Positions 2,674 to 26,370 of a stretch of DNA of 64,000 bases are shown here, piece by piece. Under the pieces are notes generated by a model that saw only the letters and a list, made by a program, of their open reading frames with translations, was not told the origin of the DNA and searched no databases. The DNA is taken from NCBI GenBank assembly GCA_937974625.1, contig CALJVJ010000036.1:1-64000 (forward strand). Direction: 5' to 3'. The position numbers and the translations under genes are program-made. The stretch is from an uncultured Saprospiraceae bacterium. Its GTDB lineage: Bacteria; Bacteroidota; Bacteroidia; Chitinophagales; Saprospiraceae. How positions within the stretch are numbered: position 1 is the first letter of the stretch; every line of letters starts with the position of its first letter.

Positions 2674-2752
2674 AAGTTCAAGCATCAAGTTCAAGTACGA
2701 TAATCAATTGTTAACCTCCTTTAATTTGAGCTTGATACTTGAGCTTGAACTT
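2674..2752. repeat. Imperfect inverted repeat in a divergent intergenic region
   Basis: aagttcaagcatcaagttcaag ... ttgagcttgatacttgagcttgaactt are near reverse complements, with the internal motif TCAAG/CTTGA repeated. Confidence 0.6.
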
Positions 2753-2985: not shown

Positions 2986-3408
2986 ATGAAAAAAATCTAC
3001 CTTCTTACCTGTGCAATTTGTTTTCTAGCAAGTTGCGCGCCGATAGCTAATCGAAGCTTTAATGGTCAAAAAGTCAACCAACGAGCAATAAAGCAAATGG
3101 AACCCGACAAATTGGCTTTAAAAGATAGTGAAGTTAATTCCATCAATCCATTAGAGTCCTACTTATTACGAGTACCTGGCGTTCAGATTCTTGGCTCAAA
3201 GGTAAAAGTAAGAGGGGCTGATTCATTTTTTAGTGAAACAGAACCATTGTTTATACTAAATGGAACAGATATTGGCAGCAGTTATGCAAAAGCAGCAAGT
3301 CTAGTCCAGGGGATGGAGATAAAATCGGTACGCGTTTTAAAAGGCCCTGATGCTTCATTTTATGGCGTAAGAGGAGGGAATGGTGTAGTCGTAATAAAAG
3401 CACAATAA
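2986..3408 (+). CDS. Small lipoprotein consisting of a solitary TonB-dependent receptor plug-like domain
   Basis: 140 aa, lipobox LASC, then LLRVPGVQI...VRGADSFFSETEPLFILNGTDIG...IKSVRVLKGPDASFYGVRGGNGVVVIKAQ, typical of the SusC-type plug; no beta-barrel follows. Confidence 0.8.
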   Translation: MKKIYLLTCAICFLASCAPIANRSFNGQKVNQRAIKQMEPDKLALKDSEVNSINPLESYLLRVPGVQILGSKVKVRGADSFFSETEPLFILNGTDIGSSYAKAASLVQGMEIKSVRVLKGPDASFYGVRGGNGVVVIKAQ

Positions 3409-3644
3409 AATAAGAAATAAATTCCTCAACCTATGTGAACCATTTATTTTTCTACAAAAAAAGTGGTCAAAATGATTAAATTAGCGCCTTTATGTGCTGA
3501 ATTAATCATTTTTTTTTATGACAATTTAGTATTAATCAATCTGCCTCCATCACAAAATGGAGACAAGTCTATCAAAATTGAGCGAATTACGATCCAACAA
3601 GAATAAACGGAGATTAAAATCATTAATCAAAACAAAAAACAATC

Positions 3645-4994: not shown

Positions 4995-5376
4995 GACGTC
5001 AAGAATAGAGCACAGTTGAACTATTATAGTAAAATTCCGTTTATAATATAAGGAATTACTTTAATTTGGTATATTATAGCAAGGTCAATAATAAACCATA
5101 AATAGCTAAAAACAATGAAATAATGGTTTTTTTAGAATAAAAATTATATCTTGTAGAGGAATACAAGATGTATTTTCTCCTAAAAAACCATGAAATCAAT
5201 GAAATTCGGCAAATACTTTTTAAAAAGTGCCGTTCCTAACCAACTTTACCATCCATTTACAATCTCATTTTCAGTTTAATATAATGACTGAATTTAATTT
5301 TCAAAACTATTTTTACGGATTAATACAAAAAAACGAGATTATTTAATCTCTTAAAATATAGTGTTTCATAGTGTGT

Positions 5377-5415
5377 AGAGGGTAAGTAGTGTTTCGATAC
5401 TGCTACCCTCTTTTT
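5377..5415 (+). terminator. Putative intrinsic terminator
   Basis: agagggtaagtagtgtttcgatactgctaccctcttttt: GC-containing stem followed by a T run. Confidence 0.55.
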
Positions 5416-5660
5416 AGTTTTCCTTCTTTGATTGGAGGCACAAATAGATTAATTCCTACCCATATTTTCCTTTTAAAACAATTACACTTCTTCACATTCA
5501 GACAGTCAAACATCCATAAAATATTGTTTTTAATTTTTTTTTTTGAAAAAACAGAAATTCTTAATAAAATATTAAATCGCTAACCTCTAAAATAACATAA
5601 GTCCCTAAAAACTAGTCGCTTACCAAGCAATCGCATCCTAAAATGCTTGTGGATAAAGTG

Positions 5661-5693
5661 TTAATTAAAACAAAAACTTTTTGTTTTAATTAA
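5661..5693. promoter_or_regulatory. Perfect 16-bp inverted repeat with 1-nt spacer, likely operator
   Basis: TTAATTAAAACAAAAA-C-TTTTTGTTTTAATTAA; further TTTGTTTTA half-sites follow downstream. Confidence 0.75.
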
Positions 5694-5710
5694 TTAATTT
5701 GTTTTATAAA

Positions 5711-5742
5711 TTTGTTTTAATAAAAGTATTTGTTTATATTTG
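5711..5742 (+). promoter_or_regulatory. Bacteroidota-type promoter (-33 TTTG, -7 TATATTTG)
   Basis: TTTG at 5711-5714, 20-bp spacer, TATATTTG (TAnnTTTG consensus) at 5735-5742, 23 bp before the ATG at 5766. Confidence 0.65.
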
Positions 5743-5765
5743 TAGCGTAATTAAAACGCAATACA

Positions 5766-6566
5766 ATGGAATTACAGATTTTAATCAGCAAAAAAGGTAC
5801 AAAAGTTGTCACTGCCAGTAATCTTTATGGAGCACTGGAATTACCAGAACAACATTATGGTACAGCACTCTTAAAGTGGATTGATAATTTTTATGAATTC
5901 ACAGATGGTATTCGCAAGCCTGTAAGACTACAGGACTATGCCAAAAGAAAGATTTCTAATAATCCTATCTTAAAGGACTATTATTTATCCATAGAAATGG
6001 CGAAGAAGATTGCGCTCCGTTCTAAGAGTAAATTAAAGAGAAAATTTGCCAAGCAATTACATGCTATACAAGATAGAGAAGAGTATGCAGAAGTGCTGAC
6101 TCAAGAGCAAATCGAAACTGTTTTAGAAGTTACTAAGATGATGACTAAAATGTCTTGTCAGGAATCGGCAGAGCGCAAACATCAAGAGATCTACACATCC
6201 CGTAATGGAGGTAGTGGGGCTAATTGGTGGAAATATCGCTCGCACCTCCTAGGCTACTCTGCTGATTACCTGCGCAAGCAAATGGAAGCTCAAGGCAAGA
6301 AGCATAAAGGTAAAACGCAACGCCAAATGCTATTGCATCTAAATAACAAACCAGAGATGATTAGAACAGCTGTAATTGATTTATTTATAGCCAGTGGTAA
6401 AAGTGACAGTCATGCTAAGAAATTAGGGGACATGGCTCGATTATTCGCATTAGAAATGCAGTTGGATGTATATGATGATAAAGAAAGCGGCAACTTGTTT
6501 GCCTCTAGCATCAATACTGCAATGCTAAGTGAATTGAAGAATTATAGACATGCAGCGGCTTTATAA
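5766..6566 (+). CDS. AntA/AntB-like antirepressor-type DNA-binding protein (phage-related)
   Basis: N-terminal VVTASNLYGALELPEQHYGTALLKWIDNFYEFTDG...DYYLSIEMAKKIALRSKSKLKRKFAKQL resembles AntA/AntB antirepressor N-termini; basic C-terminal region. Confidence 0.6.
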   Translation: MELQILISKKGTKVVTASNLYGALELPEQHYGTALLKWIDNFYEFTDGIRKPVRLQDYAKRKISNNPILKDYYLSIEMAKKIALRSKSKLKRKFAKQLHAIQDREEYAEVLTQEQIETVLEVTKMMTKMSCQESAERKHQEIYTSRNGGSGANWWKYRSHLLGYSADYLRKQMEAQGKKHKGKTQRQMLLHLNNKPEMIRTAVIDLFIASGKSDSHAKKLGDMARLFALEMQLDVYDDKESGNLFASSINTAMLSELKNYRHAAAL

Positions 6567-6650
6567 GCATTATTATATAAAAACTAATCTTACTAAGGGT
6601 AATTCTTCTTCTCACAAAGAATTACTGATATAATAAAAGAGGTCTCAAAA

Positions 6651-6690
6651 AAAAATGGGTTGCTGGAAATTTCCAGACAACCCATTTTTA
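6651..6690. terminator. Bidirectional intrinsic terminator between convergent genes
   Basis: aaaaatgggttgctggaaatttccagacaacccattttta: strong stem TGGGTTG/CAACCCA with A and T runs on the two sides. Confidence 0.8.
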
Positions 6691-6761
6691 ATTTTGAAGT
6701 TGTTTAAAACTTCTTAAATAGCACATGAATGACGTGGGGTGGCTTAACAATCCGCGTTGCA

Positions 6762-8381
6762 CTATCGACCACTTTCGCTAGTTCTCACATCCACTTCAAT
6801 TCGTTTATCTCGATTTGCCAATTCCCAAGCTGTATAAAAAATTAAGCGACCAATCTTCTCCATCTTTTCAAAATTAATTTTTTCTATCGTGTCAGAAATC
6901 ATATGGTAATCTGCATGTGTTCCATTGAAATAAAATATAGCAGGAATACCTTTTTTAGCAAAATTATAATGGTCAGAACGATAATAAAATCGATTAGGGT
7001 CATTCTCATCATTATACGTATAATCTAAAACTAAATTACTGTATTTATCATTTGCCGCTTCATTGATTTTGTGCAATTCTGTACTCAATCGGTCCGCTCC
7101 AATAACATAAATGTAGTTTGGGTTGTCTTCATATTTTTCGTGTACTCTACCCACCATGTCCACATTCACATCTACCACTGTGTTTTCTAATGGAAAGACT
7201 GGGAATTCAGAATAATAATCAGAACCTAACAAACCTTTTTCCTCTCCTGTCAACCAAATCATCATCACACTTCTACGAGGCCCTACTCCATCTGCCTTTG
7301 CTTTGGCAAAAGCTTGAGCAATTTCTAATATAGTCGTAGAACCAGAACCATTATCATCTGCACCGTTATAAACGGCGTTTCCACGTTTTCCAATATGGTC
7401 GTAATGAGCAGAAACGACGACTATTTCGTTTTTCAAAACAGGGTCCGTCCCTTCAATAAAACCAATAATATTATCTCCTAAAAGTTGATTGATATTTTTA
7501 CTTTGTGTCAGCGCAATATTGGTAGGTAAGGTCAGTGATTTACTTTTTCCTTTTTTCTCAATTTTCTTTCTTCGCTTAACAAATTTCTTTGTCTTGTCAC
7601 CAATAATATCTTTCGCAATATCGGTAGAAATATAAATACTATTGGCATATAACTCAGCCGTCTTTTCGCCTGCGCCCTTTTTCATTCGACCATCTAATAA
7701 TTGGCGGCGTAGTTCTCCTAAATTATTTTTTAAATTTCCATCAACAATTAAAACCGTTGCTACTCCATGTTTATGTGCTGTGGCTAATTTTTTCTTTCGG
7801 TCAGTAGTCCATTCAGAAATAGCTTTAGATTTAGTGACAAAAGAAACACCGTTTTTAGTAGGTTCTCCATCATAAATTAAGATAGTTTTTCCTTTTACAT
7901 TCTTGCCTTTATAATCGCTATAATTAGCATCATCAATTCCATATCCTAAAAAAACAACCTCATTGATTGTTTTAGGTGCTCGGTCTGTATTCAAGTTAGA
8001 AAAAGAGTAATATTCCCAAAGGTGTCGATATGGCTTATCCCCTACTTCTAATTTGATATCCTCCCATGATTCAGAAGTAAAAGCAATATTTTGAAAATAT
8101 CCACCTAATTTTTCCACTTCAGGAATGCCTATTTCTGCCAGTTTACTGGCAATAAATTTGGCAGCTTTAGCATTACCAGGCGTTCCTGTTTCTCGGCCTT
8201 CCATATCATCTGCCGCCAAAACACTTAGAATGGCTTTCATATCGGCTTGAGTAATTGTCTCCGCAAAAGGAACAGGATTATTAGGCGCAGTCAATTCAAA
8301 ATTTTTGTCCATAGCATTTTGTGCGCTTAGGAAAGTCGTTACACATAAACACAAAAAAAACAGTTGGGTTATTTTATTCAT
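6762..8381 (-). CDS. M28 family metallopeptidase (aminopeptidase), secreted
   Basis: Signal peptide; zinc-site motifs VVVSAHYDHIG, NGADDNGSGSTTILEIA, WLTGEEKGLLGS, YYRSDHYNFAKKGIPAIFYF. Confidence 0.92.
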   Translation of the reverse strand: MNKITQLFFLCLCVTTFLSAQNAMDKNFELTAPNNPVPFAETITQADMKAILSVLAADDMEGRETGTPGNAKAAKFIASKLAEIGIPEVEKLGGYFQNIAFTSESWEDIKLEVGDKPYRHLWEYYSFSNLNTDRAPKTINEVVFLGYGIDDANYSDYKGKNVKGKTILIYDGEPTKNGVSFVTKSKAISEWTTDRKKKLATAHKHGVATVLIVDGNLKNNLGELRRQLLDGRMKKGAGEKTAELYANSIYISTDIAKDIIGDKTKKFVKRRKKIEKKGKSKSLTLPTNIALTQSKNINQLLGDNIIGFIEGTDPVLKNEIVVVSAHYDHIGKRGNAVYNGADDNGSGSTTILEIAQAFAKAKADGVGPRRSVMMIWLTGEEKGLLGSDYYSEFPVFPLENTVVDVNVDMVGRVHEKYEDNPNYIYVIGADRLSTELHKINEAANDKYSNLVLDYTYNDENDPNRFYYRSDHYNFAKKGIPAIFYFNGTHADYHMISDTIEKINFEKMEKIGRLIFYTAWELANRDKRIEVDVRTSESGR

Positions 8382-10531: not shown

Positions 10532-11110
10532 CTAAATATATCGCTGGTCTAAAGAGAAATATTCAGGATATTTTCCTTTAATATTTTTATAAAAGTCCAT
10601 AATCTTTTTCATATCAGCTGCTACATCATCAGTGGGATAAACAACGCCTCCTATTCCTGCTTCCTTCTTTTCATAATCCAGATAGCCAAAGGTAATCGGT
10701 ACATTCGCTTTCTTAGCTACATGATAAAATCCCATTTTCCATTCTTCGCGCAAAGCTCGAGTTCCTTCAGGAGCAATAACTAAAGCTATTTGCTCATGCT
10801 CTCCAAAGAAGTCAGCCATTTGTTCAATCTGGCTTTTCCGTGGCTTATTGGGGTCTTTTTTACTTCGGTTGATACCCAATCCGCCCAAGGGTTTAACCAA
10901 CAAACCCATCGGAAATTTTGTCCAAAAATCTTTAATGGCAATTTTTACAGGAATCCCTAAAACTGAAAAAGCAACTTTTACTAAAATACCATCCCAATTT
11001 GTAGTGTGTGGTGCAGCAATAACCACACTCCGCTCTGCTTCCTTTGGAACATTAGGAGCTACTTTCCAGCCTATAATCCATAATATAAATCTAGCAATTG
11101 CTTTACCCAT
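10532..11110 (-). CDS. 1-acyl-sn-glycerol-3-phosphate acyltransferase-like (PlsC family)
   Basis: AAPHTTNWDG (HxxxxD-like NH...D block), VIAPEGTR motif. Confidence 0.85.
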   Translation of the reverse strand: MGKAIARFILWIIGWKVAPNVPKEAERSVVIAAPHTTNWDGILVKVAFSVLGIPVKIAIKDFWTKFPMGLLVKPLGGLGINRSKKDPNKPRKSQIEQMADFFGEHEQIALVIAPEGTRALREEWKMGFYHVAKKANVPITFGYLDYEKKEAGIGGVVYPTDDVAADMKKIMDFYKNIKGKYPEYFSLDQRYI

Positions 11111-11183
11111 AATGCAAAGGTAGGAAATGAAGATTGGTAGGACAAATTTTTCTACTAGTAGTAAAAAAATAGTTATGCCATTT

Positions 11184-11936
11184 TTAAAAAACTTTCAAAA
11201 ATCGAGTACCATACCAAGAGAAGGCTTCTCCATCTACGAGTTGAATAGGTATATTAGGAAAAGTCAATTTTAACTCCTTAATATGTTTTTGTTTAAAAGG
11301 GAAAGGCTCAGAGGAAAGTAGGATGATTTCGGGTTTGCGGTCGTTTAATTCTGCTAAAGTAAAGGAAGGATACCGAGCTTGTTCGCCAAACACATTCTCA
11401 TACCCTGTGTGTTTCAGCATATCATGTATGTAAGTATCATATCCAATAGTCATATAAGGCTTTTGCCAAATCAAATAAGCTGCCCTTACTTTTTTCTCCT
11501 GTTTGATTGATTGCAATAAAGTTTTAGAATCATTGATGATTTTATTAGCTACATCCTCTTTGCTCAACACTAAACCTAGTTGCTGAATCAGCTCCATCGC
11601 ATCAGCAAAATTGGCAATATCACTAATCCAAACGGGAAAATATTGACTCAATTGCTCAATCTGACTTTTATCATTTTCCTCTTTATTGGCTATTATTAAA
11701 TCTGGTTTCAAGGCAGCTACTCGGTCAAAATTTACATTTTTTGTTCCACCTATTTTAGGAATAGTACGCAAAGCTTCTTTAGGATGTACACAGAATTTAG
11801 TGCGCCCCACAATGTTTTCAAACAACCCTAAATCATAGAGTAATTCTGTAATAGAAGGAACTAAGGAAACAATCCGTTTAGGTGGAGAATCTAAAATGAT
11901 TTTTCTACCTAATTGGTCAGAATATATATTTGACAA
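11184..11936 (-). CDS. Helical-backbone metal receptor / BtuF-like cobalamin or siderophore-binding protein
   Basis: PPKRIVSLVPSITELLYDLGLFENIVGRTKFCVHP...IPKIGGTKNVNFDRVAALKPDLIIANKEEN; no obvious signal peptide. Confidence 0.8.
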   Translation of the reverse strand: MSNIYSDQLGRKIILDSPPKRIVSLVPSITELLYDLGLFENIVGRTKFCVHPKEALRTIPKIGGTKNVNFDRVAALKPDLIIANKEENDKSQIEQLSQYFPVWISDIANFADAMELIQQLGLVLSKEDVANKIINDSKTLLQSIKQEKKVRAAYLIWQKPYMTIGYDTYIHDMLKHTGYENVFGEQARYPSFTLAELNDRKPEIILLSSEPFPFKQKHIKELKLTFPNIPIQLVDGEAFSWYGTRFLKVF

Positions 11937-12009
11937 GATGATAAAAATTTAGATTTCCAGCAAAGGGTAAGCACTCAATATTACTATATGTATCGTATTT
12001 AATCAATAA

Positions 12010-12031
12010 CGACGAATGAATTCGTCGGTAC
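12010..12031. repeat. Short palindromic element (REP-like), copy 1
   Basis: CGACGAAT-GA-ATTCGTCG(GTAC); GAATGAATTCGTCGGTAC is 17/18 identical to the minus strand at 33408-33391. Confidence 0.5.
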
Positions 12032-12032
12032 T

Positions 12033-12578
12033 TTATTTCGCTGTCCAAACAACTTCTTCTGCCCCCAATTCTTTACCCACAAAACGAGCCAATACAAAAA
12101 AGTAATCCGACAAACGGTTTAGATATTGAATCAAAATAGGAGCAATCGTTTCAAGTTCACTCAAAGCAACTACATTTCTTTCCGCTCTGCGACAAACACA
12201 TCGCACCACATGGCAATGAGAAACAGTAGGATGGCCTCCTGGTAAAATAAAATTCTTTAAAGGTTCCAGACGCTCTTCCATACGGTCAATCCCTTTTTCT
12301 AGCATTTCAATTTCAGCAGGTTTAATTTCGGGTATCCAAAGGTTCTCTTTGGAAGGGTCAGCAGCTAAGTGAGAACCGATGGTAAAAAGCGTCTCTTGAA
12401 TAGACTTTAGTTCCCCACGCAATACATCATTCATCAAATGGTCTCTAACCAAACCGATAAAAGAATTCAATTCATCTACCGTTCCATAAGATTCAATACG
12501 AATATGATGCTTGGGCAAACGCGCGCCACCAAAAAGGGCAGTTGTACCTTTATCTCCTGTTTTAGTGTATATTTTCAT
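12033..12578 (-). CDS. Cob(I)yrinic acid a,c-diamide adenosyltransferase, PduO type
   Basis: MKIYTKTGDKGTTALFGGARLPKHHIRIESYGTVDELNSFIG...LPGGHPTVSHCHVVRCVCRRAER...YLNRLSDYFFVLAR. Confidence 0.95.
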   Translation of the reverse strand: MKIYTKTGDKGTTALFGGARLPKHHIRIESYGTVDELNSFIGLVRDHLMNDVLRGELKSIQETLFTIGSHLAADPSKENLWIPEIKPAEIEMLEKGIDRMEERLEPLKNFILPGGHPTVSHCHVVRCVCRRAERNVVALSELETIAPILIQYLNRLSDYFFVLARFVGKELGAEEVVWTAK

Positions 12579-12660
12579 ATGCTAATTTATTTTCCAACAA
12601 AATTAAAGAAGTAGCTTGAATTATAATTAGAAGTCTATCTAAAAAAGTAGAATTAACAAA

Positions 12661-12698
12661 CAACCCCTTCAAAATAATTAAATCTTGAAGGGGTTGTA
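12661..12698. terminator. Intrinsic terminator
   Basis: caaccccttcaa-aataattaaatc-ttgaaggggttg stem, downstream of the helicase gene. Confidence 0.75.
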
Positions 12699-12724
12699 AT
12701 ACTTATATCAATTATAGATAAATA

Positions 12725-14470
12725 TTAGTTACGGTAAGAACGTCTTCTATTTCCGCCACCGCCACCGCCTTTTCTTTCGAAACGGTCACCAGCATTGATA
12801 CGAATAGAACGTCCTTCGAATTCTGCATCTTTTAATTCACTAATAACTTGTTCCGCAGAATTTTCCTCAACTTCAAAGAAAGTAAATTTCTCTTGCATGT
12901 CAATTCGACCAATCGCTTGTCCAGAAATATTAGCCTCTTTACAAATCATATTGATAAAAGGGCCTTTCCCTCCTACGTCCATAGAACCAATATTAATAAA
13001 CAATCGCTGTCTTCTTTCTCTGCGGCCACCACCAGATCCAGCATCATCACGACGTCCATTATTTCGGCCACTATTTCGTCCACCATCTCGGCGTCCTCTA
13101 TGTCCACCACCATGGCTTACTCTATCTCTACGACCTCTTGATTCTCTTTGGTTTAAATCTTTAGCATCGCTGTAATTTTTCAAGAATCTGGCTAAAGAGA
13201 TAGTTGCTATTTTTGCTAACAATTCTTCTTTAGTTAACTCCTCTCCTAATTCTTCAACTAACTGAGGTAACAAAGCTTGTACCTGTTCATTCACCTCTGC
13301 TTCTTTAATAGACTTAACTTGTTCTACCAATCGCTGTTGGCAAATGGCATCACCAGTAGGAATCAATACTTGCGAAAATTCAACTTTAAGGGTTCGTTCC
13401 AGTCTTCGTAAGATACTTACATCTCTAGGATGCGCTAAAACTAGCGAAATACCTTTATTTCCTGCACGTCCAGTCCGTCCACTTCTGTGTGTATAAAAGG
13501 AAAGGTCTTCAGGAATATTATAATGAAAGACGTGTGTAATTTCATTCACATCAATCCCTCTTGCTGCGACATCTGTTGCGACCAAGATTTGTAATCGTCT
13601 GTCTCTAAATCTCGACATTACTCGGTCACGCTGTGCTTGGGTCAAATCGCCATGTAAAGCATCCGCCTTATAGCCGTCTCTACTTAAATTTTCTGCAACT
13701 TCTCTAGCATCTCTACGGGTTCGTGTAAATACCAAACCAAAGCAACTAGAATTAAAGTCTAAAAATCGGCGCAATACTTCATATCTATCAGAAGGATAAA
13801 CAGTCACATATTGGTGGTCGATATCTTGATTAGAAGAATTAGTAGTCCCAACCTTGATTTCTACAGGGTCAGTCATATAGTTTTTAGAAATTCTTCTAAC
13901 CTCTTTGGGCATCGTCGCAGAAAACAACCAAGTCAATTTATCATCAGGAGTGTTATCTAAGATTTCATCAATCTCTTCTTTAAACCCCATATTGAGCATT
14001 TCATCTGCCTCATCTAGCACGACGTACTCAATTTCATTTATATTAATCGCTTTACGCTTAATTAAATCTCTTAGTCGACCAGGTGTTGCCACTACAATCT
14101 GCACACCTCTCTTAATGGCTTTCATTTGTTGGTAAATATCTGTACCACCATAAACCGCTAAAATATTCAAAGCTCGATTATACTTACCAAATTGGTCTAA
14201 TTCCTTAGCAATTTGTAGACATAATTCTCTAGTAGGCGCCAAGACCAACGCTTGGGTAATCTTTTCCTTAGCATCCACTAAGTCAATTAAAGGCAAACCA
14301 AAAGCAGCAGTTTTCCCAGTACCAGTTTGAGCCAAACCAATAAGGTCAGATTCATCATTTAATAAAACAGGAATAGCTTGTTCTTGAATAGCTGTAGGCG
14401 TTACAAAACCTAATTTACCAATAGCATCTACTAACGGTTGAGACAGCCCCAACGAAGCAAAATCACTCAT
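12725..14470 (-). CDS. DEAD-box RNA helicase, DeaD/CsdA-like, with C-terminal DbpA-type RNA-binding domain and RG-rich linker
   Basis: AQTGTGKTAAF, PTRELCLQ, VLDEADEMLN, SATMP, HRSGRTGRAG; linker rich in RGRRD/GGRN; C-terminal GSMDVGGKGPFINMICKEANISGQAIGRIDM. Confidence 0.95.
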   Translation of the reverse strand: MSDFASLGLSQPLVDAIGKLGFVTPTAIQEQAIPVLLNDESDLIGLAQTGTGKTAAFGLPLIDLVDAKEKITQALVLAPTRELCLQIAKELDQFGKYNRALNILAVYGGTDIYQQMKAIKRGVQIVVATPGRLRDLIKRKAININEIEYVVLDEADEMLNMGFKEEIDEILDNTPDDKLTWLFSATMPKEVRRISKNYMTDPVEIKVGTTNSSNQDIDHQYVTVYPSDRYEVLRRFLDFNSSCFGLVFTRTRRDAREVAENLSRDGYKADALHGDLTQAQRDRVMSRFRDRRLQILVATDVAARGIDVNEITHVFHYNIPEDLSFYTHRSGRTGRAGNKGISLVLAHPRDVSILRRLERTLKVEFSQVLIPTGDAICQQRLVEQVKSIKEAEVNEQVQALLPQLVEELGEELTKEELLAKIATISLARFLKNYSDAKDLNQRESRGRRDRVSHGGGHRGRRDGGRNSGRNNGRRDDAGSGGGRRERRQRLFINIGSMDVGGKGPFINMICKEANISGQAIGRIDMQEKFTFFEVEENSAEQVISELKDAEFEGRSIRINAGDRFERKGGGGGGNRRRSYRN

Positions 14471-14634
14471 ATATTGTTTTTAGTGTAACTATCCAGGGAT
14501 TCTTTGTCTCAGGGGAGAGCGGTGGTGGTTTGCGCCAATTTTCTCTATACTATACCGACGAACTAATTTAAATTTTTCCTAATGTCGGGACATACAAACC
14601 TAATCTTAGACAGATACTTTTCTTAATTAGGCTG

Positions 14635-14667
14635 CAAAGGTACGACTTTATATTATATATTATCAAA
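14635..14667 (-). promoter_or_regulatory. Bacteroidota-type promoter upstream of the DEAD-box helicase gene
   Basis: Minus strand TTTG (14667-14664), 21-bp spacer, TACCTTTG (14642-14635), followed by CAGCC. Confidence 0.7.
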
Positions 14668-15580: not shown

Positions 15581-16309
15581 ATGAAAAAAAAGAAAGCAGT
15601 AACCTCCAATCCACCTTCTATGAAGCAATGGACAAAGATAAAAGGAGAAAACTCTTGGACGATGTTCAAAGTCATTTCAGAGATGGTAGAAGGATTTGAA
15701 CGGTTGAATGAAATTGGCCCATGTGTTTCTATTTTCGGTTCAGCGCGTACAAAACCAGACCATCCCTATTATAAATTAGCAATTGATGTCGCTCGCAAAT
15801 TAACAGAAGAAGGTTTTGGAGTCATTACTGGAGGCGGTCCAGGGATTATGGAAGCAGGGAATAGGGGCGCAAAATTATATGATGGCGTTTCTGTAGGATT
15901 AGGCATTGACTTACCATTTGAATCAGGTGTCAACGAGTTTGTCGATACAGATAAAATTCTAAATCATCGTTTTTTCTTTGTCAGAAAAGTAATGTTTGTA
16001 AAATATGCGCAAGGTTTCGTGGTCTTACCGGGCGGATTTGGTACACTAGATGAATTATTCGAAGTGTTAACCTTGATTCAAACTAAGAAAATCACCAAAG
16101 TGCCTATTGTCTTAGTTGGAAAAGATTTTTGGTCTGGGCTTAAAGGTTGGATTAAAAGTGTAATGCTTGAGCAAGCTGGTAATATCAGTGAGAAAGATTT
16201 GGACTTAATACCGATTGTTGAAAATGCGGATGAAGCAGTGGCTATTATTTGCAATTTTTATAAAGGAAAAGATTCTGGTGAGTTGTCCCCTAATTATGAT
16301 GTGGGTTAA
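15581..16309 (+). CDS. TIGR00730/LOG family Rossmann-fold protein (putative cytokinin riboside phosphoribohydrolase-like)
   Basis: VSIFGSARTKPDHPYY, GVITGGGPGIMEAGNRGA, VVLPGGFGTLDELFEVLTLIQT (PGGxGTxxE). Confidence 0.92.
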   Translation: MKKKKAVTSNPPSMKQWTKIKGENSWTMFKVISEMVEGFERLNEIGPCVSIFGSARTKPDHPYYKLAIDVARKLTEEGFGVITGGGPGIMEAGNRGAKLYDGVSVGLGIDLPFESGVNEFVDTDKILNHRFFFVRKVMFVKYAQGFVVLPGGFGTLDELFEVLTLIQTKKITKVPIVLVGKDFWSGLKGWIKSVMLEQAGNISEKDLDLIPIVENADEAVAIICNFYKGKDSGELSPNYDVG

Positions 16310-16352: not shown

Positions 16353-17105
16353 ATGAACTTTACAGATAAAATAGCACTAATCACTGGCTCTGGTTCAGGA
16401 ATTGGTCGAGCTACCGCTATTATGTTTGCAGAAAAAGGGGCACACATCATGGTTTCAGACATCAATGAAAAAGGTGGGTTGGAAACCGTTAAAATGGTTG
16501 AAGCTATCGGTCAAAAAGCAGCTTTTTGCAAAACAGATGTTTCCAATTTAGCACAAGTTAAAAATTTGGTTCAACAAACCGTAGCTACTTTTGGTCGGGT
16601 CGATATAGCTGTGAATAATGCGGGGATAGGAGGAGATTTTAAAATCACTCATGAGTATCCTGTAGAAAATTGGGATAAAGTGATTGCGATTAACCAAACA
16701 GGTGTTTTTTACTGCATGCAAGCAGAATTAGCTCAAATGACCAAACAAGGAGGGGGTGCGATTGTCAATATCTCCTCCATCGCAGGTCTAAAAGCACAAC
16801 CATATACAGCTGCCTACACTGCCGCAAAACACGCAGTAGTTGGCTTAACAAAAACAGCCGCTCACGAATATGCTCGATATAATATTCGAGTGAATGCAGT
16901 TTGTCCTGTATTTACTATGACCCCTATGGTCAAAGATATGTTGACGATAGACCCTTCCTTTGAAAAAAAACTATTAAGAAACATTCCATTACGTCGATAC
17001 GGACAGCCTAAGGATATTGCCAATGCAATTGTTTGGCTCTGTGCGGAGGAGACTGGCTTTATTACAGGACATAGTATGCCTGTAGATGGTGGTATGACGG
17101 CATAA
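16353..17105 (+). CDS. SDR family oxidoreductase
   Basis: ITGSGSGIGRATA, VNNAGIGG, YTAAKHAVVGLTKTAAHEYA, GHSMPVDGGMTA. Confidence 0.93.
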   Translation: MNFTDKIALITGSGSGIGRATAIMFAEKGAHIMVSDINEKGGLETVKMVEAIGQKAAFCKTDVSNLAQVKNLVQQTVATFGRVDIAVNNAGIGGDFKITHEYPVENWDKVIAINQTGVFYCMQAELAQMTKQGGGAIVNISSIAGLKAQPYTAAYTAAKHAVVGLTKTAAHEYARYNIRVNAVCPVFTMTPMVKDMLTIDPSFEKKLLRNIPLRRYGQPKDIANAIVWLCAEETGFITGHSMPVDGGMTA

Positions 17106-17184
17106 CTTTTTAAGGAGTTAGGATATAAAATCAGTTTTTGCATCAAATTATTATTTTTAACAACCTGCTTATTATTGATTTTGA

Positions 17185-17231
17185 GATTTAAGATATGTCA
17201 AAATCTTAGAAGATTTGACATATCTTAAATC
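17185..17231. repeat. Near-perfect ~22-bp inverted repeat (hairpin)
   Basis: GATTTAAGATATGTCAAAATCTT / AAGATTTGACATATCTTAAATC, one indel between arms, 80 bp after the SDR stop. Confidence 0.7.
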
Positions 17232-17645
17232 CCAAAATTTTAATAGACTTTATAAGCAAACCTTACTTTCTTCCTACTCTATCCTACTAAAAATGAATAT
17301 TACAGCCCTTCAACGCTGCACGACGAAAACTGCAAAATGATTATAGTAGGGTATAGTAAGCCCTACTCCTTTCATTTATGCAAAAAAAATTCAATTAGGT
17401 TAAAAAAAATAAAACCTAATTGGGTATTTTATGAATATGTCGTATATTCACATATCTTATTTTTTCTCTCCTCTCAATAATACATTACGAGCAAACATTA
17501 CTTCTGCATAGTAATATTCCTTATACCATTCCTAGTATAGGTGTCAACGAAGTTGGGTTCGTTACACAAATAGACTATGCCAATACATGGCTATTTCAAA
17601 AACTAGCTTGAATAAATACCCTTATCAAGCCTTTAACCTCAAAAA

Positions 17646-20600
17646 ATGAAAAAAAATCAAACGCTTTCAATCAACTTCTTCTCTTTAAATTTAAAGCAAC
17701 TCCGTATTGCTTTTTTATCAATGAGTATGTTATGCACTATAAATATTTATGCGCAGCAATTTCTCTTTGAAGAAACAGTCAACAACATTGATTTTTCTAC
17801 AGAAGAAACACAATTACAACAGTCTTTTAATGCAACGAGTATCCGTTTTGCTAATTTCAATGGTATTACTGGCACACCAGATTTAGTCATAAAATTGTCT
17901 AGTGACATTTCCCATAAAGTTAGCTATCTCCGAACCGAAACTTTTACAAATGGCTCAGAAGCATGGGTGGGAAAAATAGCAGGGCAACCATTTAGTTCTG
18001 TCGTTTTTTCAAAAGCCAAAGGAGTATGGTATGGAAGAATTCAAGATGAGAATGGAAAAATATTCATGGTCTTTTCTACGGACCAACAAGGTGTCTATAG
18101 TATTATTGAGTTAGGCGATTCCTTAATGGCAGAAGGCGATGACCAAGTGTTAGTATCAGGTGGTCTAAAAAATAACGATGCCACTAGCAGAAATATGATG
18201 AGTGTTTGTGATGCAGGAAGTACCTGTACAGACGTTGTTGTAGATTTATTAATCCTTTACACAGATGATGTCAGGCTTAATAATGGAGGTACCGCTTCGG
18301 TAGAAGCATACATAGCAGGTGTGGTTGCTGACTTAAACCTAGTGAATACTAATAGTGGGGTAACCCATTCTTTTAACTTGAAACATACGGAAGAAGTCAA
18401 TTATGCTGAATCGGGCAGTTCTAATACGGATTTAAATAGACTTGCTGGAACAACGGATGGTTTTATGGATAATGCACATACACTAAGAGATGGGCATGGT
18501 GCGGATTTGGTAGGATTATTAGTAGAAGATGGAGGTGGTTTTTGTGGCTTAGGCCAACTTCCCGTTTCTGGGAGTAGCGAAAATTACGTATCAACTACCG
18601 CCTTTACAATCACACAATATGGATGTGCAGGAGGTAATCGTTCCTTCGCTCATGAAGTGGGGCATAATATGGGTCTTCGACATGATAGATATGTTGATGA
18701 CAACAATACACCTTGTGCTGAAAGTCATGGGTATGTGAATCAAGCTGCTTTTGTAGCAAGTGCTCCCACTGAAAAACGATGGAGAACGGTCATGGCTTAT
18801 AATAATGATTGTGCCGACAATGGAGGTTTCAATTGTATTCGTATAGGATATTGGTCAAACCCTTCCAATACACTTACTTCTGACCCAATGGGTGTCACTG
18901 CCTCTGGCTCAGAAGCAAATTCTACTTATGTACTGAATAGAGCTGCTTGTTTGGTTTCCAATTATAGAACTGCTCCTATTGAAAACCCTGTAGCTGGCTC
19001 CATTACCTGTGCAGGAGACAATCCCACTTTTGATGTTACTATTACAGCAACTGGAGGCTCTGGTAATTATAATGTGTACAATAGTACCTCAGTCTTCGAT
19101 GGTACGACCTTAGTAGGCTCAGTTACAGGAGCTGCAACTACAGGAACAGCAGTAATCCCTGTTACCATTCCAGGGCCAACCATCACCCAAGGAGCTACTT
19201 TAACCGTAAGACAAGCAGCGCCAGCTCCAAGCTCAAATATCACTTTTAGCGTACTATTGCCTAATTGTAATTGTACGAATAGCCCAGCGACAACTGAATT
19301 AACAGAAGATTTTAGTTTTGCTGATTTTGGTGGCTGTTGTTCAGGTGCTTTACCTTCAGGATATAGTAAGTCTCAAAACGCTGGCAATGGTTTCTTAACT
19401 GGTGATCAGTATAGTACAGGGGGAGAGTTGTACAAATGGGACAATACCACTGATGCATGGTTATTCACTAAACCAGTTACGCTGACAGAAGGGGTAAAAT
19501 ACACTTTTAGTTTAGACTACAGAAAACTATTTTCTACCTCTACCACCGAAACGGTCACTATAAAGTATGGAACTGCTCAATCTGAAGCATCAATGGTTCA
19601 TACCATAGGAAGTGCAACAGGATTTACGACTACTTACCAACCGACTTCCCATGATTTTACGCCGACTACATCTGGTGTTTATCACATAGGAATAAATGCA
19701 ACAAGCTCTTCAACAGGCGCTTATACCAATTTTGACAAATTCCTTTTAGAAGGTTCTTGTATCTGTCCTGATGGAAATATGATTGATGATGCCGCTACTA
19801 TTTGTACAGGAACCTTAGCCTCAGAAATCTCAACCTGGCAAACAGCAGTTACTACTGATGCTAATAATATGGTATCAATTGCAAGTAGTGTCACAGGATC
19901 TGCTGTTGTGTACTCCACAGTACTTATCGATGGAGCTGTGACTATGCCAAATGGAAATACTGCCAATGGTGTACATAGTGGTGGAGATAATTGTGCATCA
20001 GAGACACAAACTACTTATGCCTATCTATTATGTTATGGAATAGATGAGAACGTAGGCGGCGGAGATGATAGTTATTTACTATTAGGTACACATACTTTAA
20101 CTGTCAATCCTGATGTGCAAGCACCTTCAGAAAATGTAAATGACTGTATCAATACGATAGCTGTTGCTTGCTCCGGAGATACTTTTACAGGCGTGAGTAC
20201 CCCAACTGGTGGCGCAGCAATTAGTAAATGGAATGCGAGTACTGGTGTTTATACGGCCCTAGATGGAGACCCCGCAGGCACCATAACCATTAAAATAGAA
20301 AGTGGTGTGAGTGGTTCTGATTGTGAAAAAGAATTTATAATCACGACCCCTGCATGTGGGGAACAAGCCTGCCCACCAACCTTAGACGTAACGGCAGTTG
20401 CTGACGGTCAAGTTTATCAAGCAGCCAATACCCTAACATCATCAATTGTCATTCCTTCGAATAATACCGTGACTTTTTTAGCAGGGCAATCTATTACTTT
20501 AGGTGTCGGTTTTGAGGCGGCCCCAACTACTGGCTTTACATTTACAGCAGCAATCGCTAACTGTGCCCCACCACAAACACTACAAGCCCCCGCAGTAGCT

Positions 20601-20882
20601 AGAAATAACAATTTGGCTGAGCAAACAGATTTATCTATATACCCGAATCCTGCGAGAGAGACAGTGACCATTGATTATCAATTGGGCGCAGTATCTACGG
20701 CAAGTATTGGTTTGTATAACTTAACAGGAAAAAAAGTAACGGATATTCTACCAATGCAATCACAAGCAGAAGGAAAATATCAACAACAACTTAACCTGAC
20801 CAATCTACAAGCAGGTATGTACTTTGTATTATTACAAACAGAGACCGAACAGATTTCTAAGAAATTAATTTTAGTTCGGTAA
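17646..20882 (+). CDS. Secreted reprolysin-like (metzincin) metalloprotease with T9SS type A C-terminal sorting domain
   Basis: Signal peptide ...IYAQ; zinc motif HEVGHNMGLRHDR and downstream VMAYNN; C-terminal LSIYPNPARETVTIDYQL...GMYFVLLQTETEQISKKLILVR. Confidence 0.92.
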   Translation: MKKNQTLSINFFSLNLKQLRIAFLSMSMLCTINIYAQQFLFEETVNNIDFSTEETQLQQSFNATSIRFANFNGITGTPDLVIKLSSDISHKVSYLRTETFTNGSEAWVGKIAGQPFSSVVFSKAKGVWYGRIQDENGKIFMVFSTDQQGVYSIIELGDSLMAEGDDQVLVSGGLKNNDATSRNMMSVCDAGSTCTDVVVDLLILYTDDVRLNNGGTASVEAYIAGVVADLNLVNTNSGVTHSFNLKHTEEVNYAESGSSNTDLNRLAGTTDGFMDNAHTLRDGHGADLVGLLVEDGGGFCGLGQLPVSGSSENYVSTTAFTITQYGCAGGNRSFAHEVGHNMGLRHDRYVDDNNTPCAESHGYVNQAAFVASAPTEKRWRTVMAYNNDCADNGGFNCIRIGYWSNPSNTLTSDPMGVTASGSEANSTYVLNRAACLVSNYRTAPIENPVAGSITCAGDNPTFDVTITATGGSGNYNVYNSTSVFDGTTLVGSVTGAATTGTAVIPVTIPGPTITQGATLTVRQAAPAPSSNITFSVLLPNCNCTNSPATTELTEDFSFADFGGCCSGALPSGYSKSQNAGNGFLTGDQYSTGGELYKWDNTTDAWLFTKPVTLTEGVKYTFSLDYRKLFSTSTTETVTIKYGTAQSEASMVHTIGSATGFTTTYQPTSHDFTPTTSGVYHIGINATSSSTGAYTNFDKFLLEGSCICPDGNMIDDAATICTGTLASEISTWQTAVTTDANNMVSIASSVTGSAVVYSTVLIDGAVTMPNGNTANGVHSGGDNCASETQTTYAYLLCYGIDENVGGGDDSYLLLGTHTLTVNPDVQAPSENVNDCINTIAVACSGDTFTGVSTPTGGAAISKWNASTGVYTALDGDPAGTITIKIESGVSGSDCEKEFIITTPACGEQACPPTLDVTAVADGQVYQAANTLTSSIVIPSNNTVTFLAGQSITLGVGFEAAPTTGFTFTAAIANCAPPQTLQAPAVARNNNLAEQTDLSIYPNPARETVTIDYQLGAVSTASIGLYNLTGKKVTDILPMQSQAEGKYQQQLNLTNLQAGMYFVLLQTETEQISKKLILVR

Positions 20883-20908
20883 TAAATTATCAATAAAATA
20901 GAAAACTA

Positions 20909-20945
20909 AAAAAGCAGGTCTTTCAATTAAAGTCCTGCTTTTTTA
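20909..20945 (+). terminator. Intrinsic terminator
   Basis: aaaaaagcagg...cctgctttttt stem with T run just after the metalloprotease stop. Confidence 0.75.
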
Positions 20946-21032
20946 GTTCAACAATATTCCTACCTTTAATTATTTGGTATTTATTTTCTTCTTAAAAATT
21001 ATCCTTTATTCTATTTTTTAAAATTAGAGTAT

Positions 21033-21230
21033 GTCTTTATTTACGATAATGTTTATAAGCACAAAGATGCTGGCATATATCCTACTTTTGAAAAAAAGTT
21101 GAGAAATATTTCATTACGCAGCTATGGCCAGCCTAATGATATAGCCAATGCTATTGTTTGGCTCTGTGCGGAGGAGACTGGCTTTATTACGGGGCATAGT
21201 ATGCCCGTAGATGGCGGAATGAAGGCATAG
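21033..21230 (+). pseudogene. Truncated 3' fragment of an SDR gene, paralogous to the SDR at 16353-17105
   Basis: In-frame PTFEKKLRNISLRSYGQPNDIANAIVWLCAEETGFITGHSMPVDGGMKA* versus PSFEKKLLRNIPLRRYGQPKDIANAIVWLCAEETGFITGHSMPVDGGMTA* of the intact gene; no start codon or Rossmann region. Confidence 0.88.
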
Positions 21231-21643
21231 TATTTGCAATAGGAATAGTTATCAGTATTATAAATAATTACTCCTTTATTACACAGGAACTAAGAAAAAT
21301 CTCCTATTTCTACTTAAAAGTTCCCATCCTCCTTAACTCATCCCCTTTAAAATACTAAAAAACACCATCTAAAGGCGTTTTTATTTACACAATAGCCAGC
21401 ATTTCACTTAATGCATTATAAATTATTCATATATTTGATAAAACATTCCCTCTTTTGGTTTTTAATACCCTTTCCCTAACATAATCCATTTATTAACAAC
21501 AATAGTTATAGAGGTGAAATCATTATTGAACTATCTCTAAAACTATGATTAGTTACAAAATAATAATAGACCAAACAAATAATATTTTTTAACCCCGCTT
21601 GATATTCTAAATCAAGCTATTATTAAAATCCAAACTATTTTTC

Positions 21644-24600
21644 ATGAAACCCAAACACTTAAAAAGCATCGATTTTAATCCTTTAGTAGGATTAAAATCC
21701 TACAAAAACTTTGCTTTATTATTTCTTATTAATTTCATATTTTTTTCCTTCAATCAGGAAGCATTCAGTCAAATAGTAAACTCAGATTTACCAGAAACGG
21801 AAACTCATGAATCTACTGCCAAAGGCGATATACGCCAAGTAGATTTAATTTTAGATGACTCAGAGGAGTCACAAAGCGTTACAGTAAAAGTAGTTGATGG
21901 CCTCGTTTTTTTGGATGGAGATATGCTATTAGGGACGGAAGCAGAAGTATTTGGTAGCGCTGCTATTTATAATGTTGCTGCCAACGTATGGCCTAATTCT
22001 ACGATGCCTTATACCATAAAGGCAGGATATACTCAAGCAGAAGAGGATATGATTTCTTATGCTATTAATCATGTCAGTGAAAATAGTAACCTTTGTTTAA
22101 AGCCTAGAACCACAGAAGCTAACTATGTAGAGTTTAATAAGGACAATGGTGGATGTTTTTCTTCGGTTGGAATGACCGGAGGTAAGCAAATTATTAATGT
22201 CTCTATTAATTGTGGTATAGGCGCAACCATTCACGAAATTTTACATGCTGCAGGACATTGGCACGAACAATCCCGAGCAGATAGAGACACCTACGTGTCC
22301 ATTGATTTGTCTCAAGTACCTACAGGTAATCAACATAATTTTAATAAATATTCAACAGGAGCAGATATAGGTGCCTATGATTATGGTTCAATAATGCATT
22401 ATAATGAGACTGCTTTTACAACGGATGGCAGCAATTCCATTACTGTAATAAAGCCACCAGGTACAAATAATACAGATATTGGGCAGCGGTTAAATATGAG
22501 TGCAGGGGATATTGCGGCTATCAATCAAGTATATACTAGTACCCCATCCTGCACTCCAGTAACAGGATTGCCTTCAAATCTGCGCATAGACGATAAAGGA
22601 AGTATTTCTGTTGACCCAACAACAGGAATGGTAACTATCACAGGAGTAGTTATTAAAAATATTGGCAATGCTGCATCTGCGGCTACATCACTTTACTTGG
22701 TTAGAAGCAACGGAAGCAATATTGTTTTTAATCCAATAAGTATTCCAGTACTAGCAGCAGATGCTACCCAGAATATCGCTACTATAAGTTATAATGCTTC
22801 TGTATTATCTAATGGTGTATACGGGTTTGGTTTATGGATAGACCCTTTCAATAGTAGCGGAGATGGTAATTCATCAGATAATGTTCATTTATGGACCTTT
22901 CCAACCTTGACCCTTCCTTTGTGTGCTATTCCAACTCCTTCATTAGGGACAATAACTCAACCAACGACCTGTATAAGTACAGATGGAAGCATACAATTGA
23001 CAGGATTAATCGCAAATACTGGTTATGATTTATACTATCAGAAAAATAATGTTAGTATACTAGCAACGCCTATCACTACCGACGGTTCTGGAAATTATCT
23101 AATTTCAGGTTTAACAATTGGCGATTATACAGGCATTAATGTTGATTTAACAGGTTGTATCTCCGCAAATTTATCTCAAACCCTTTCCAGTCCTGATATC
23201 GTTCCAACCTTTAGTTTAGGAACTATTACCAATCCTACTACTTGTGGTTTTGGAAATGGTAGTATACAATTGACAGGACTTGATGCTTCCACAAATTATG
23301 ATTTGAATTATGTAAGAGATGGAGTGGCATATGGGCCCTTTGCTTTTTCTTCTGATGCCAGTGGAAATTATACCGCATCTGGTATGTTAGCAGGAGCTTA
23401 TACCGATATAACTGTTACTTTAGGTATTTGTCCTTCGCTGGGCATCTCAACTACGCTCACCCCTAATTACACACCACCTTCAACACCAAATTGTGAAAAT
23501 ACTACCTCAAGTACAGGGTTGAATAACTATTATGGGGGCTTAACTAGCATAAAAATAGGTACAGAAACAAGGACTTCAGGCCCTACAACTGAAGACCAAT
23601 CAACTTATGGAGGAAACGGTTTTATTGACTTCACTAATGATTGTACTAAAAACTTTGCCTTAACAGAGGGAGCAACTTATACCTATGAATTGACTACTTT
23701 TTATAATAATCACAATATAAAAGCTTGGATTGATTACAACAATAACGATGACTTTGATGCAGGTGAATTAATTTTTAACGCAAATACTATTGGTACCTAT
23801 AATTCTGGAAATAATATGGCTTCAGGGTCTTTTACTGTTCCCACTTCAACGGTAAATGATACGCATCTAAAATTAAGAGTCCTTTGTGAGTTGGGCAATG
23901 TTACCAATGCCTGTTATAATCCTACTTATGGTCAATCTGAAAATTATCCAGTTTTCATAGAAAGTTTGGCATCCTGCCCAACTGCAAGCGTTATTAGTGG
24001 AGATGCGACCATTTGCAAAGGCGAAAGTACAAATTTAAGCGTAGCAATAACCGATGGCGTTAGTCCTTATACCGTAGTTTATAGTGATGGCAGTAGTAAT
24101 ACAACAATCAATGGTTATACTACTGGCAGCAATATTCCTGTTTCACCTATGTCGACGACGACTTATACTTTAGTCTCAGTGACCGATGCTAACAGTTGCA
24201 CAGGGGTTGGAAATTCAGGCTCCGCAGTAGTTACCGTCAATGAAGGAAGTACCGCAGCAGTTATGAGTGGTACCGCTTCTATTTGTAATGGCGAAAGCAC
24301 AAATATTTCGGTCGCAATAACGGGTGGTACGAGCCCCTATACGTTGGTCTACACTACAATAGCCGGCACTACCACTATCAATAGTTATACTTCGGGAACT
24401 GCAATTGCTGTGAGTCCTTCTGCTGATTCTACTTATACTATCGTATCTGTGACCGATGCCAATGGTTGTGTTGGTGTAAATAATTCTGGCAGTGCCGTTA
24501 TTACTGTTAATGAAGGAAGTACCGCAGCAGTTATGAGTGGTACCACTACTATTTGTAATGGCGAAAGTACTGATATTTCAGTCGCAATAACAGGTGGTAC

Positions 24601-25852
24601 GAGTCCCTATACATTGGTCTACACTACAATAGCCGGCACTACCACTATCAATAGTTATACTTCGGGAACTGCAATTGCTGTGAGTCCTTCTGCTGATTCT
24701 ACTTATACTATCGCTTCAGTAACCGATGCCAATGGATGCCTAGGTGTAAATAACTCAGGCAATGCCGTTATTACCGTTAATGAAGGTAGTACTGCAGCAG
24801 TAATGAGTGGCACAGCTACTATTTGTAATGGCGAAAGTACCGATATTTCGGTTGCAATAACAGGCGGTACTAGTCCATACACTTTGGTCTATCATACAAT
24901 AGCTGGCGCTACGACTATAACTAGTTATACTTCAGGAACTGCAATTGCTGTTAGTCCTCCTATTGATTCTAGTTATTCTATAGTATCTGTGACCGATACC
25001 AATGGCTGCCTAGGTATAAGTAATTCAGGAAATGCGGCTATCACCGTTAATTCGGGTAGTACGGCAGCAACAATGAGTGGCACAGCCACCATAACAAGTG
25101 GCAACAGCACACCAATAGCTGTAGCAATTACAGGAGGTAGTGGCCCTTATTCGCTAGTGTACAGTGATGGTAGTACAAATACAACTATAGGAAGTTACGC
25201 CTCAGGAACACCAATCTCTGTCTCTCCTACTGTCAATACCACTTATACCATTGTTTCTGTAACAGATTCAAATGGTTGTCCAGGAGTAGGAAATACAGGA
25301 AGTGCAGTCATTACGGTCAATGCACCACCTAGCTGTCCAAATACCCTTAATGTGACAGCCGTCGCTCATAATCAAACTTATGCAGCTGCAAATACCCTAA
25401 CTTCCTCGATTGTCATTCCGCCTACGAATACCGTGACTTTCAATGCAGGGCAATCTATCACTTTAGGGGTCGGTTTTCATGCAGCACCGACTTCAACGCA
25501 TACTTTCACAGCAGCAATTTCAAGTTGTGCGGTATTCCAAGCGCCAGCGGTCGCTAGAAATAATAACTTGTCAGAAGATTTAGCCGAACAAACGGGTTTA
25601 ACCTTATATCCTAATCCTGCCAGAGATTATCTGACCATTGATTATCAATTGGATAAGTTTTCTACTGCTAGCATTGGATTATATGACATGACGGGTAAAA
25701 GGGTAATAGATATTGTACCTGCGCAATCTCAAGCAAAAGGAAAATATCAACATCAACTTAACCTAAATGAATTACCAGAAGGTATGTATTTTGTGTTGCT
25801 ACAAACAGAGCACGAACAAATTTCGCAGAAATTGATTGTCGTTCGGCAATAA
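21644..25852 (+). CDS. Secreted astacin-like (M12A) metalloprotease with GEVED-like domain, five ~90-aa repeats and T9SS sorting domain
   Basis: TIHEILHAAGHWHEQSRADRD (HExxHxxGxxHExxR) and SIMHY; IKAWIDYNNNDDFDAGELIF (GEVED type); repeats ITGGTSPYTLVY...VTDANGC; C-terminal LTLYPNPARDYLTIDYQL...KLIVVRQ. Confidence 0.93.
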   Translation: MKPKHLKSIDFNPLVGLKSYKNFALLFLINFIFFSFNQEAFSQIVNSDLPETETHESTAKGDIRQVDLILDDSEESQSVTVKVVDGLVFLDGDMLLGTEAEVFGSAAIYNVAANVWPNSTMPYTIKAGYTQAEEDMISYAINHVSENSNLCLKPRTTEANYVEFNKDNGGCFSSVGMTGGKQIINVSINCGIGATIHEILHAAGHWHEQSRADRDTYVSIDLSQVPTGNQHNFNKYSTGADIGAYDYGSIMHYNETAFTTDGSNSITVIKPPGTNNTDIGQRLNMSAGDIAAINQVYTSTPSCTPVTGLPSNLRIDDKGSISVDPTTGMVTITGVVIKNIGNAASAATSLYLVRSNGSNIVFNPISIPVLAADATQNIATISYNASVLSNGVYGFGLWIDPFNSSGDGNSSDNVHLWTFPTLTLPLCAIPTPSLGTITQPTTCISTDGSIQLTGLIANTGYDLYYQKNNVSILATPITTDGSGNYLISGLTIGDYTGINVDLTGCISANLSQTLSSPDIVPTFSLGTITNPTTCGFGNGSIQLTGLDASTNYDLNYVRDGVAYGPFAFSSDASGNYTASGMLAGAYTDITVTLGICPSLGISTTLTPNYTPPSTPNCENTTSSTGLNNYYGGLTSIKIGTETRTSGPTTEDQSTYGGNGFIDFTNDCTKNFALTEGATYTYELTTFYNNHNIKAWIDYNNNDDFDAGELIFNANTIGTYNSGNNMASGSFTVPTSTVNDTHLKLRVLCELGNVTNACYNPTYGQSENYPVFIESLASCPTASVISGDATICKGESTNLSVAITDGVSPYTVVYSDGSSNTTINGYTTGSNIPVSPMSTTTYTLVSVTDANSCTGVGNSGSAVVTVNEGSTAAVMSGTASICNGESTNISVAITGGTSPYTLVYTTIAGTTTINSYTSGTAIAVSPSADSTYTIVSVTDANGCVGVNNSGSAVITVNEGSTAAVMSGTTTICNGESTDISVAITGGTSPYTLVYTTIAGTTTINSYTSGTAIAVSPSADSTYTIASVTDANGCLGVNNSGNAVITVNEGSTAAVMSGTATICNGESTDISVAITGGTSPYTLVYHTIAGATTITSYTSGTAIAVSPPIDSSYSIVSVTDTNGCLGISNSGNAAITVNSGSTAATMSGTATITSGNSTPIAVAITGGSGPYSLVYSDGSTNTTIGSYASGTPISVSPTVNTTYTIVSVTDSNGCPGVGNTGSAVITVNAPPSCPNTLNVTAVAHNQTYAAANTLTSSIVIPPTNTVTFNAGQSITLGVGFHAAPTSTHTFTAAISSCAVFQAPAVARNNNLSEDLAEQTGLTLYPNPARDYLTIDYQLDKFSTASIGLYDMTGKRVIDIVPAQSQAKGKYQHQLNLNELPEGMYFVLLQTEHEQISQKLIVVRQ
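23971..25320 (+). repeat. Five tandem in-frame 270-bp (90-aa) repeats
   Basis: Equivalent motif GSTAAVMSG begins at 24241, 24511, 24781 and 25051 (exact 270-bp spacing); a first divergent unit starts about 23971. Confidence 0.9.
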
Positions 25853-25980: not shown

Positions 25981-26370
25981 TTAAAGTTGTTCATCTACAT
26001 CCCGCAATTCATCCTCATCATAATCGCCAAACCACTTCGTCAACTGCGTTCGAGCATTCTTTTTGACTTCATCGTTAACATAGCAAGCAATAGTCACTAA
26101 ACCAAAACTGAGCATACCAATATCATCTGTATAACCAATAATCGGCGTTAAATCTGGAATGGCATCAATGGGTGCTATAAAATAGCCTAGTACACCAAAT
26201 ATAACCCGTTTAGCCCATGCAGGCGTATCTTTTCGCTTATAAGCATAAAAGAGTAACAAGGCAGAATAAACAACCTTTAGGCCAGCCTGTTGAGCATAGG
26301 CTTTGATTTTACTCCACATCTTTGCCTCCGAAAAACGATTTTTATATTTTTCTATTAACTTTTTCATCAT
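25981..26370 (-). CDS. DUF1232/YkvA family membrane protein
   Basis: RVIFGVLGYFIAPIDAIPDLTPIIGYTDDIGML motif. Confidence 0.9.
   Translation of the reverse strand: MMKKLIEKYKNRFSEAKMWSKIKAYAQQAGLKVVYSALLLFYAYKRKDTPAWAKRVIFGVLGYFIAPIDAIPDLTPIIGYTDDIGMLSFGLVTIACYVNDEVKKNARTQLTKWFGDYDEDELRDVDEQL

Follow-up and report, generated by a model that had tools for sequence, protein, structure and literature searches.

How do two neighbouring genes come to encode secreted proteases of different catalytic families that nevertheless end in closely related C-terminal segments? We examined this question in an uncultured Saprospiraceae bacterium, within a window of 64,000 nucleotides (the whole stretch of DNA that was analysed). 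Between positions 16353 and 25852, an intact SDR oxidoreductase gene, protease A, the 3' remnant of a second SDR gene and protease B follow one another, all on the plus strand. A sequence-only reading of this DNA had described this order, with a reprolysin-like and an astacin-like protease, and all four parts were found where it had placed them (Table 1). It had gone on to propose a block duplication in which the catalytic module was swapped onto a constant type IX secretion system (T9SS) cassette.

Table 1 Features of the SDR–protease locus, in window positions.
Feature	Positions	Strand	Evidence
SDR oxidoreductase, intact, 250 aa	16353..17105	+	adh_short_C2 235 bits, adh_short 203 bits
Imperfect palindrome, 62 bp	17178..17239		self-blastn inverted match 90%; 17160-17260 fold -34.9 kcal/mol
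Protease A, 1078 aa	17646..20882	+	ORF and domain profiles
Shared tail, copy A (3-coathanger GCX_COOH and T9SS sorting domain)	20370..20882	+	75% aa identity to copy B
Hairpin terminator 3' of protease A	20904..20948		fold -23.0 kcal/mol with T-run; inverted match
SDR 3' remnant, 155 bp	21075..21229	+	84% DNA identity to intact SDR
Protease B, 1402 aa	21644..25852	+	ORF and domain profiles
Tandem repeats of ~270 bp within protease B, about 90 aa each	23990..25322	+	TRF and self-blastn
Shared tail, copy B	25334..25852	+	75% aa identity to copy A
Hairpin terminator 3' of protease B, before convergent gene 25981-26370	25922..25967		fold -19.9 kcal/mol; inverted match

The 62-bp palindrome between the intact SDR gene and protease A folds into a strong hairpin and is probably terminator-like or a repeat element. 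Elsewhere in the window, at 42722-44882, two adjoining minus-strand ORFs of 351-352 aa have very similar N-termini (...SIWSCIDEIALNVDTEQRTLVVDGFVTDSLG...) and look like a tandem duplicate.

Two metzincin families on sister export tails

Protease A comprises a signal peptide, a propeptide, a reprolysin-like (M12B) catalytic domain, accessory domains, a 3-coathanger domain and a T9SS type A sorting domain. It scored above the cut-offs of the reprolysin families PF13688, PF13583 and PF13582 (57 bits against 27 for PF13688), and its zinc motif HEVGHNMGLRHD at residue 336 (HExxHNxGxxHD pattern) and Met-turn VMAY are both intact, which identifies it as reprolysin-like (M12B). A search of protease A against PDB sequences gave no match at E 0.01. 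Protease B consists of a signal peptide, a short propeptide, an astacin (M12A) catalytic domain, Ig-like and GEVED domains, repeats, and the same two C-terminal domain types. Its catalytic domain, which carries HEILHAAGHWHEQSRADRD, matched Astacin PF01400 at residues 116-298 with 154 bits (cut-off 22.5), and the zinc motif HEILHAAGHWHE at residue 197 (HExxHxxGxxHE pattern) and Met-turn IMHY are again intact, identifying it as astacin-like (M12A). The catalytic domains thus belong to different metzincin families, as the sequence-only reading had recognized. Compared with astacin (1ast), meprin beta (4gwm) and BMP1, the catalytic domain of protease B matches from end to end, zinc motif and Met-turn included; unlike them, protease B is bacterial, and its catalytic domain is followed by Ig-like and GEVED domains, repeats and a T9SS tail. 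TRF counted 3.1 copies of the repeat with 87% matches at 24231-25080, and the array is longer by self-blastn; this expansion is more recent than the tail duplication.

The last ~170 residues of both proteins are formed by the 3-coathanger domain (NF045639, GCX_COOH) and the T9SS type A sorting domain (TIGR04183, PF18962). The sorting domain lies above the curated cut-offs in A and B alike (Por_Secre_tail, 62 and 58 bits against 27; TIGR04183, 47 and 45 against 23), which classes both as T9SS type A cargo. Judged from these domains, the shared tail should address both proteases to the T9SS after Sec passage of the inner membrane, and their family membership predicts that both are secreted and proteolytically active.

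Over 167 codons, the two tails are identical at 75% of amino acids (dN 0.18, dS 1.11), evenly across the coathanger and sorting parts, and their DNA is 72% identical over 528 columns (blastn). The very similar C-terminal region noted from sequence alone is therefore real. The shared stretch begins with the 3-coathanger domain and runs to ~10 bp past the stop codons. N-terminal to it, nothing was convincingly alignable between A and B, with blastp returning the tail only and the best forced local alignment being of low complexity. The catalytic domains do differ, as had been claimed, but the non-shared part is the entire N-terminal portion of 908 and 1230 residues, spanning signal peptide, propeptide, and catalytic and accessory domains.

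With at least 150 sorting domains in the same genome, the resemblance might be ordinary, reflecting convergent or generic T9SS tails. However, the next-best tail in this genome is 42% identical to the pair, the closest ones belonging to M36 fungalysin-like proteases on contigs C321 and C130. In a sample of 398 family genomes, no tail was closer than A and B are to each other and none exceeded 42%; at E 1e-25, two further tails were recovered, both in the congener G006 and 37-38% identical. A scan of genome contigs with the tail alignment gave only one distant match (24%). The dS between the two tails is measurable rather than saturated, and A and B came out as sisters (support 99/98) in the tree built from 33 tails; the nearest tails were those of L114 in G006 and L121 in the congener G002 (support 92/70). 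We therefore rejected a generic tail as the explanation and assign it a negligible probability. The cassette is not equally similar to many T9SS proteins, a finding that would have counted against the sequence-only reading; its term "constant" is nonetheless too strong, as the tails are old (dS ~1.1) and exist in two copies only.

The SDR remnant and the age of the duplicated pieces

The remnant corresponds to codons 199-250 of the intact SDR gene (E 3e-43), with its own stop codon and one codon deleted, and 45 of 52 residues are identical in the tblastn alignment. Third positions account for 17 of the 22 substitutions (dS 0.79, dN 0.05, dN/dS about 0.07). In simulations, about 29 non-synonymous differences were expected on the remnant's own branch had it been neutral since duplication, compared with six observed, and no more than about 15-20% of the divergence could be attributed to neutral drift (20% neutral time, p about 0.001). 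The kept amino acids show that the remnant functioned as an SDR through most of its past, its truncation coming late. The same counts led us to reject a simple tandem duplication whose left breakpoint lay inside the SDR gene, a scenario in which the remnant would have been incomplete from the start. The remnant probably reaches back, as a weak and decayed extension carrying two single-base deletions, to ~21027 (0/2000 in end-anchored shuffles; p 0.076 when unanchored).

Such constraint requires that the remnant come from a working gene, which would also fit a fragment of some other full-length SDR, since lost or lying in the ~15% of the genome missing from the incomplete assembly, that was inserted here independently of the tail pair. 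Yet the window SDR is by far the closest known relative of the remnant, and other SDRs reach at most about 60% identity to the window SDR: its closest relatives elsewhere are 55-60% identical, and none above 60% was found among the 398 family genomes. We consider such an insertion very unlikely.

The sequence-only reading had suggested comparing the synonymous divergence of tails and SDR copies. The synonymous difference pS was 0.58 for the tails (120 sites) and 0.49 for the remnant, without a clear age difference (Fisher p=0.33), a comparison of low power because the remnant offers 51 codons and 33 synonymous sites. On this test the dS values of tails and SDR copies are indistinguishable, which is compatible with, rather than proof of, one block duplication. 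For orthologous flanking genes, dS against G006 and G002 ranged from about 1.2 to saturation, which dates the duplications to about the time of the split from the closest congeners with sequence data, or to somewhat after it.

The duplicated pieces lie in the order SDR-A-SDR'-B on the same strand and are each other's best match, which supports block duplication. On balance, we lean towards a tandem duplication of a unit of SDR gene and T9SS protease, followed by replacement of the front end in one copy. In this lineage, tandem duplication would have doubled an ancestral unit of an SDR gene and a T9SS-exported protease. One protease copy would then have lost its N-terminal part, from signal peptide through accessory domains, and gained a different metzincin front end through recombination that ended at the start of the 3-coathanger domain and kept the export tail. 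Purifying selection would have acted on the second SDR for most of this period, until it was cut late to its 3' end, leaving the present locus with two extracellular zinc proteases, reprolysin-type A and astacin-type B. Between the two SDR-to-protease intergenic stretches, and between the two signal peptides, no similarity was detectable; this is weak counter-evidence, because neutral sequence would in any case no longer be recognizably similar at dS ~1.

The earlier proposal thus stands in part. The pieces in register, their common orientation, their status as mutual closest matches and their similar divergence agree with block duplication, but a single event is not proven by them. Different heads do sit on sister tails, but we infer the swap of the front end, and local copying of a tail would look alike.

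Possible local copying of tails, and the locus in relatives

Heads A and B each occur once in their own genome at E 1e-20, and no donor for either was found elsewhere in this assembly, which is 84% complete. Head A was found in none of eight congeners; head B had no close counterpart there, with G006 carrying one astacin at 34%. The closest relatives of the heads reach 37% identity in G061 and 43-46% in G080, G081 and G100. Neither an intermediate state, with two units bearing the same head, nor an outgroup unit was found in the eight congeners or, for the heads, in 100 relatives. This and the lack of a donor count against block duplication without excluding it. The base composition of heads compared with tails gave no clear foreign signal.

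Such sporadic heads are what would be seen of acquired genes, and they fit a history in which A and B were unrelated neighbours until local recombination replaced the 3' end of one with that of the other, through gene conversion or because an incoming protease captured the tail; the SDR remnant would then be a separate event. The sharp edge of the homology at the 3-coathanger domain and its end just past the stop codons agree with such copying, the edge also counting for block duplication, and a second neighbour pair in this genome, on contig C15, shows a similar pattern. However, copying needs an independent SDR duplication that landed in register between the proteases with statistically indistinguishable divergence, and we regard it as rather unlikely, although still a serious contender.

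The C15 pair came from a comparison of neighbouring T9SS genes in regions of this genome chosen for closeness, which is not a rate estimate. Most compared pairs had unrelated tails, and those on C166 and C332 were ordinary tandem duplicates with homologous heads. The A/B pair (contig C36) had the top tail score of all compared pairs, without head homology. The C15 pair (L119, G000:C15:33000-47662; 2210-6928 and 10554-14663) is a second case, older than that on C36. It comprises a CEMIP/F5-F8-type protein and a CpaA-like metalloprotease with ricin-type lectin domains, whose N-terminal heads are unrelated and whose sister C-terminal segments total about 420 residues at 42-46% identity. M36-type tails cluster in the tail tree, and all scanned ones carry M36 heads; tails therefore normally stay with their heads, and A/B is an exception. 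On contig C134, a 138-aa ORF (L154, G000:C134:6000-11758, at 5332-5745) holds little beyond a T9SS sorting domain and lies 149 bp 3' of a DUF5122 T9SS protein; the two tails are mutual best matches (42%), and the ORF is perhaps a duplicated or orphan tail.

The window's locus lies between a LOG-type gene (15581-16309) and a YkvA-like gene (25981-26370). The flanking genes on both sides have orthologs in G002 in the same arrangement, so the contig is native. In G002, a T9SS protease of about 705 aa, also reprolysin-type, sits in the slot between the LOG-type and YkvA-like genes; other genes come after it, and the slot contains neither an SDR nor an astacin. This slot is split across two contigs (L126 end and L136 start) that overlap by exactly 141 bp inside the protease gene. 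We rejected the G002 protease (protease C) as a positional ortholog of A, its best head match being E 0.04 over 12 residues. In G006, the contig breaks off next to the YkvA-like gene, at a dispersed repeat of ~53 bp (L141:1-55). Copies of this repeat lie at the ends of about 40 contigs or close to them, and it resembles the terminus of a multicopy mobile element.

A survey of relatives for other heads on the same cassette, as the sequence-only reading had suggested, yielded no close tail in the family sample; the proteins with the nearest tails (L114 and L121) include a reprolysin head. If block duplication with front-end replacement holds, this would favour A as the ancestral protease; an Ig-like pair common to protease B and the G002 L121 protein (33%) counters that direction.

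Comparison with known modular T9SS cargo

The KLIKK proteases of Tannerella forsythia are encoded by six genes in two clusters; their catalytic families differ, yet their C-terminal domains, which serve T9SS-type export, are near-identical (PMC4404884). They have no counterpart in a close relative, and acquired proteases fused to common flanking segments have been proposed as their origin (Ksiazek et al. 2015, PMC4404884). Like them, A and B are neighbouring protease genes of different catalytic families with close C-terminal domains. In contrast, A and B end in KKLILVR and QKLIVVRQ rather than Lys-Leu-Ile-Lys-Lys, their tails are not near-identical, and there are only two genes, with the tail preceded by a 3-coathanger domain and an SDR flank that was probably co-duplicated. 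The A/B pair thus resembles the KLIKK set and is not a member of it.

In Porphyromonas gingivalis, T9SS cargo modules of the gingipains and HagA have been rearranged and exchanged between proteases and adhesins (PMC5266723). There, too, T9SS cargo is assembled from exchangeable modules, but it is adhesin domains that gingipains and HagA have in common, whereas A and B are metzincins sharing a 3-coathanger and sorting domain. The T9SS-exported M36 fungalysin-like proteases of the same genome (C321 and C130; cf. NF038113) have tails of the same two domains as A and B, but they belong to another catalytic family, and their tails and heads have diverged together, without a change of head.

Different heads on near-identical tails were already known from Tannerella, and the mix-and-match principle itself from Tannerella and Porphyromonas; A/B is a more recently found, older and smaller instance with an SDR remnant as a marker. 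Cases such as this, with two metzincin families on one recognizably duplicated export tail and an SDR remnant that helps to tell how the tail was doubled, make it possible to ask whether block duplication, gene conversion or capture of incoming genes spreads T9SS tails. It is conceivable, though we think it improbable, that neighbouring T9SS genes of this genus serve one another as partners in local recombination, with tails copied or duplicated in place and new fronts joined at the 3-coathanger domain. If so, secreted protease repertoires would diversify at fixed loci, and the C36 pair, the C15 pair and the protease in the G002 slot would be instances of this process.
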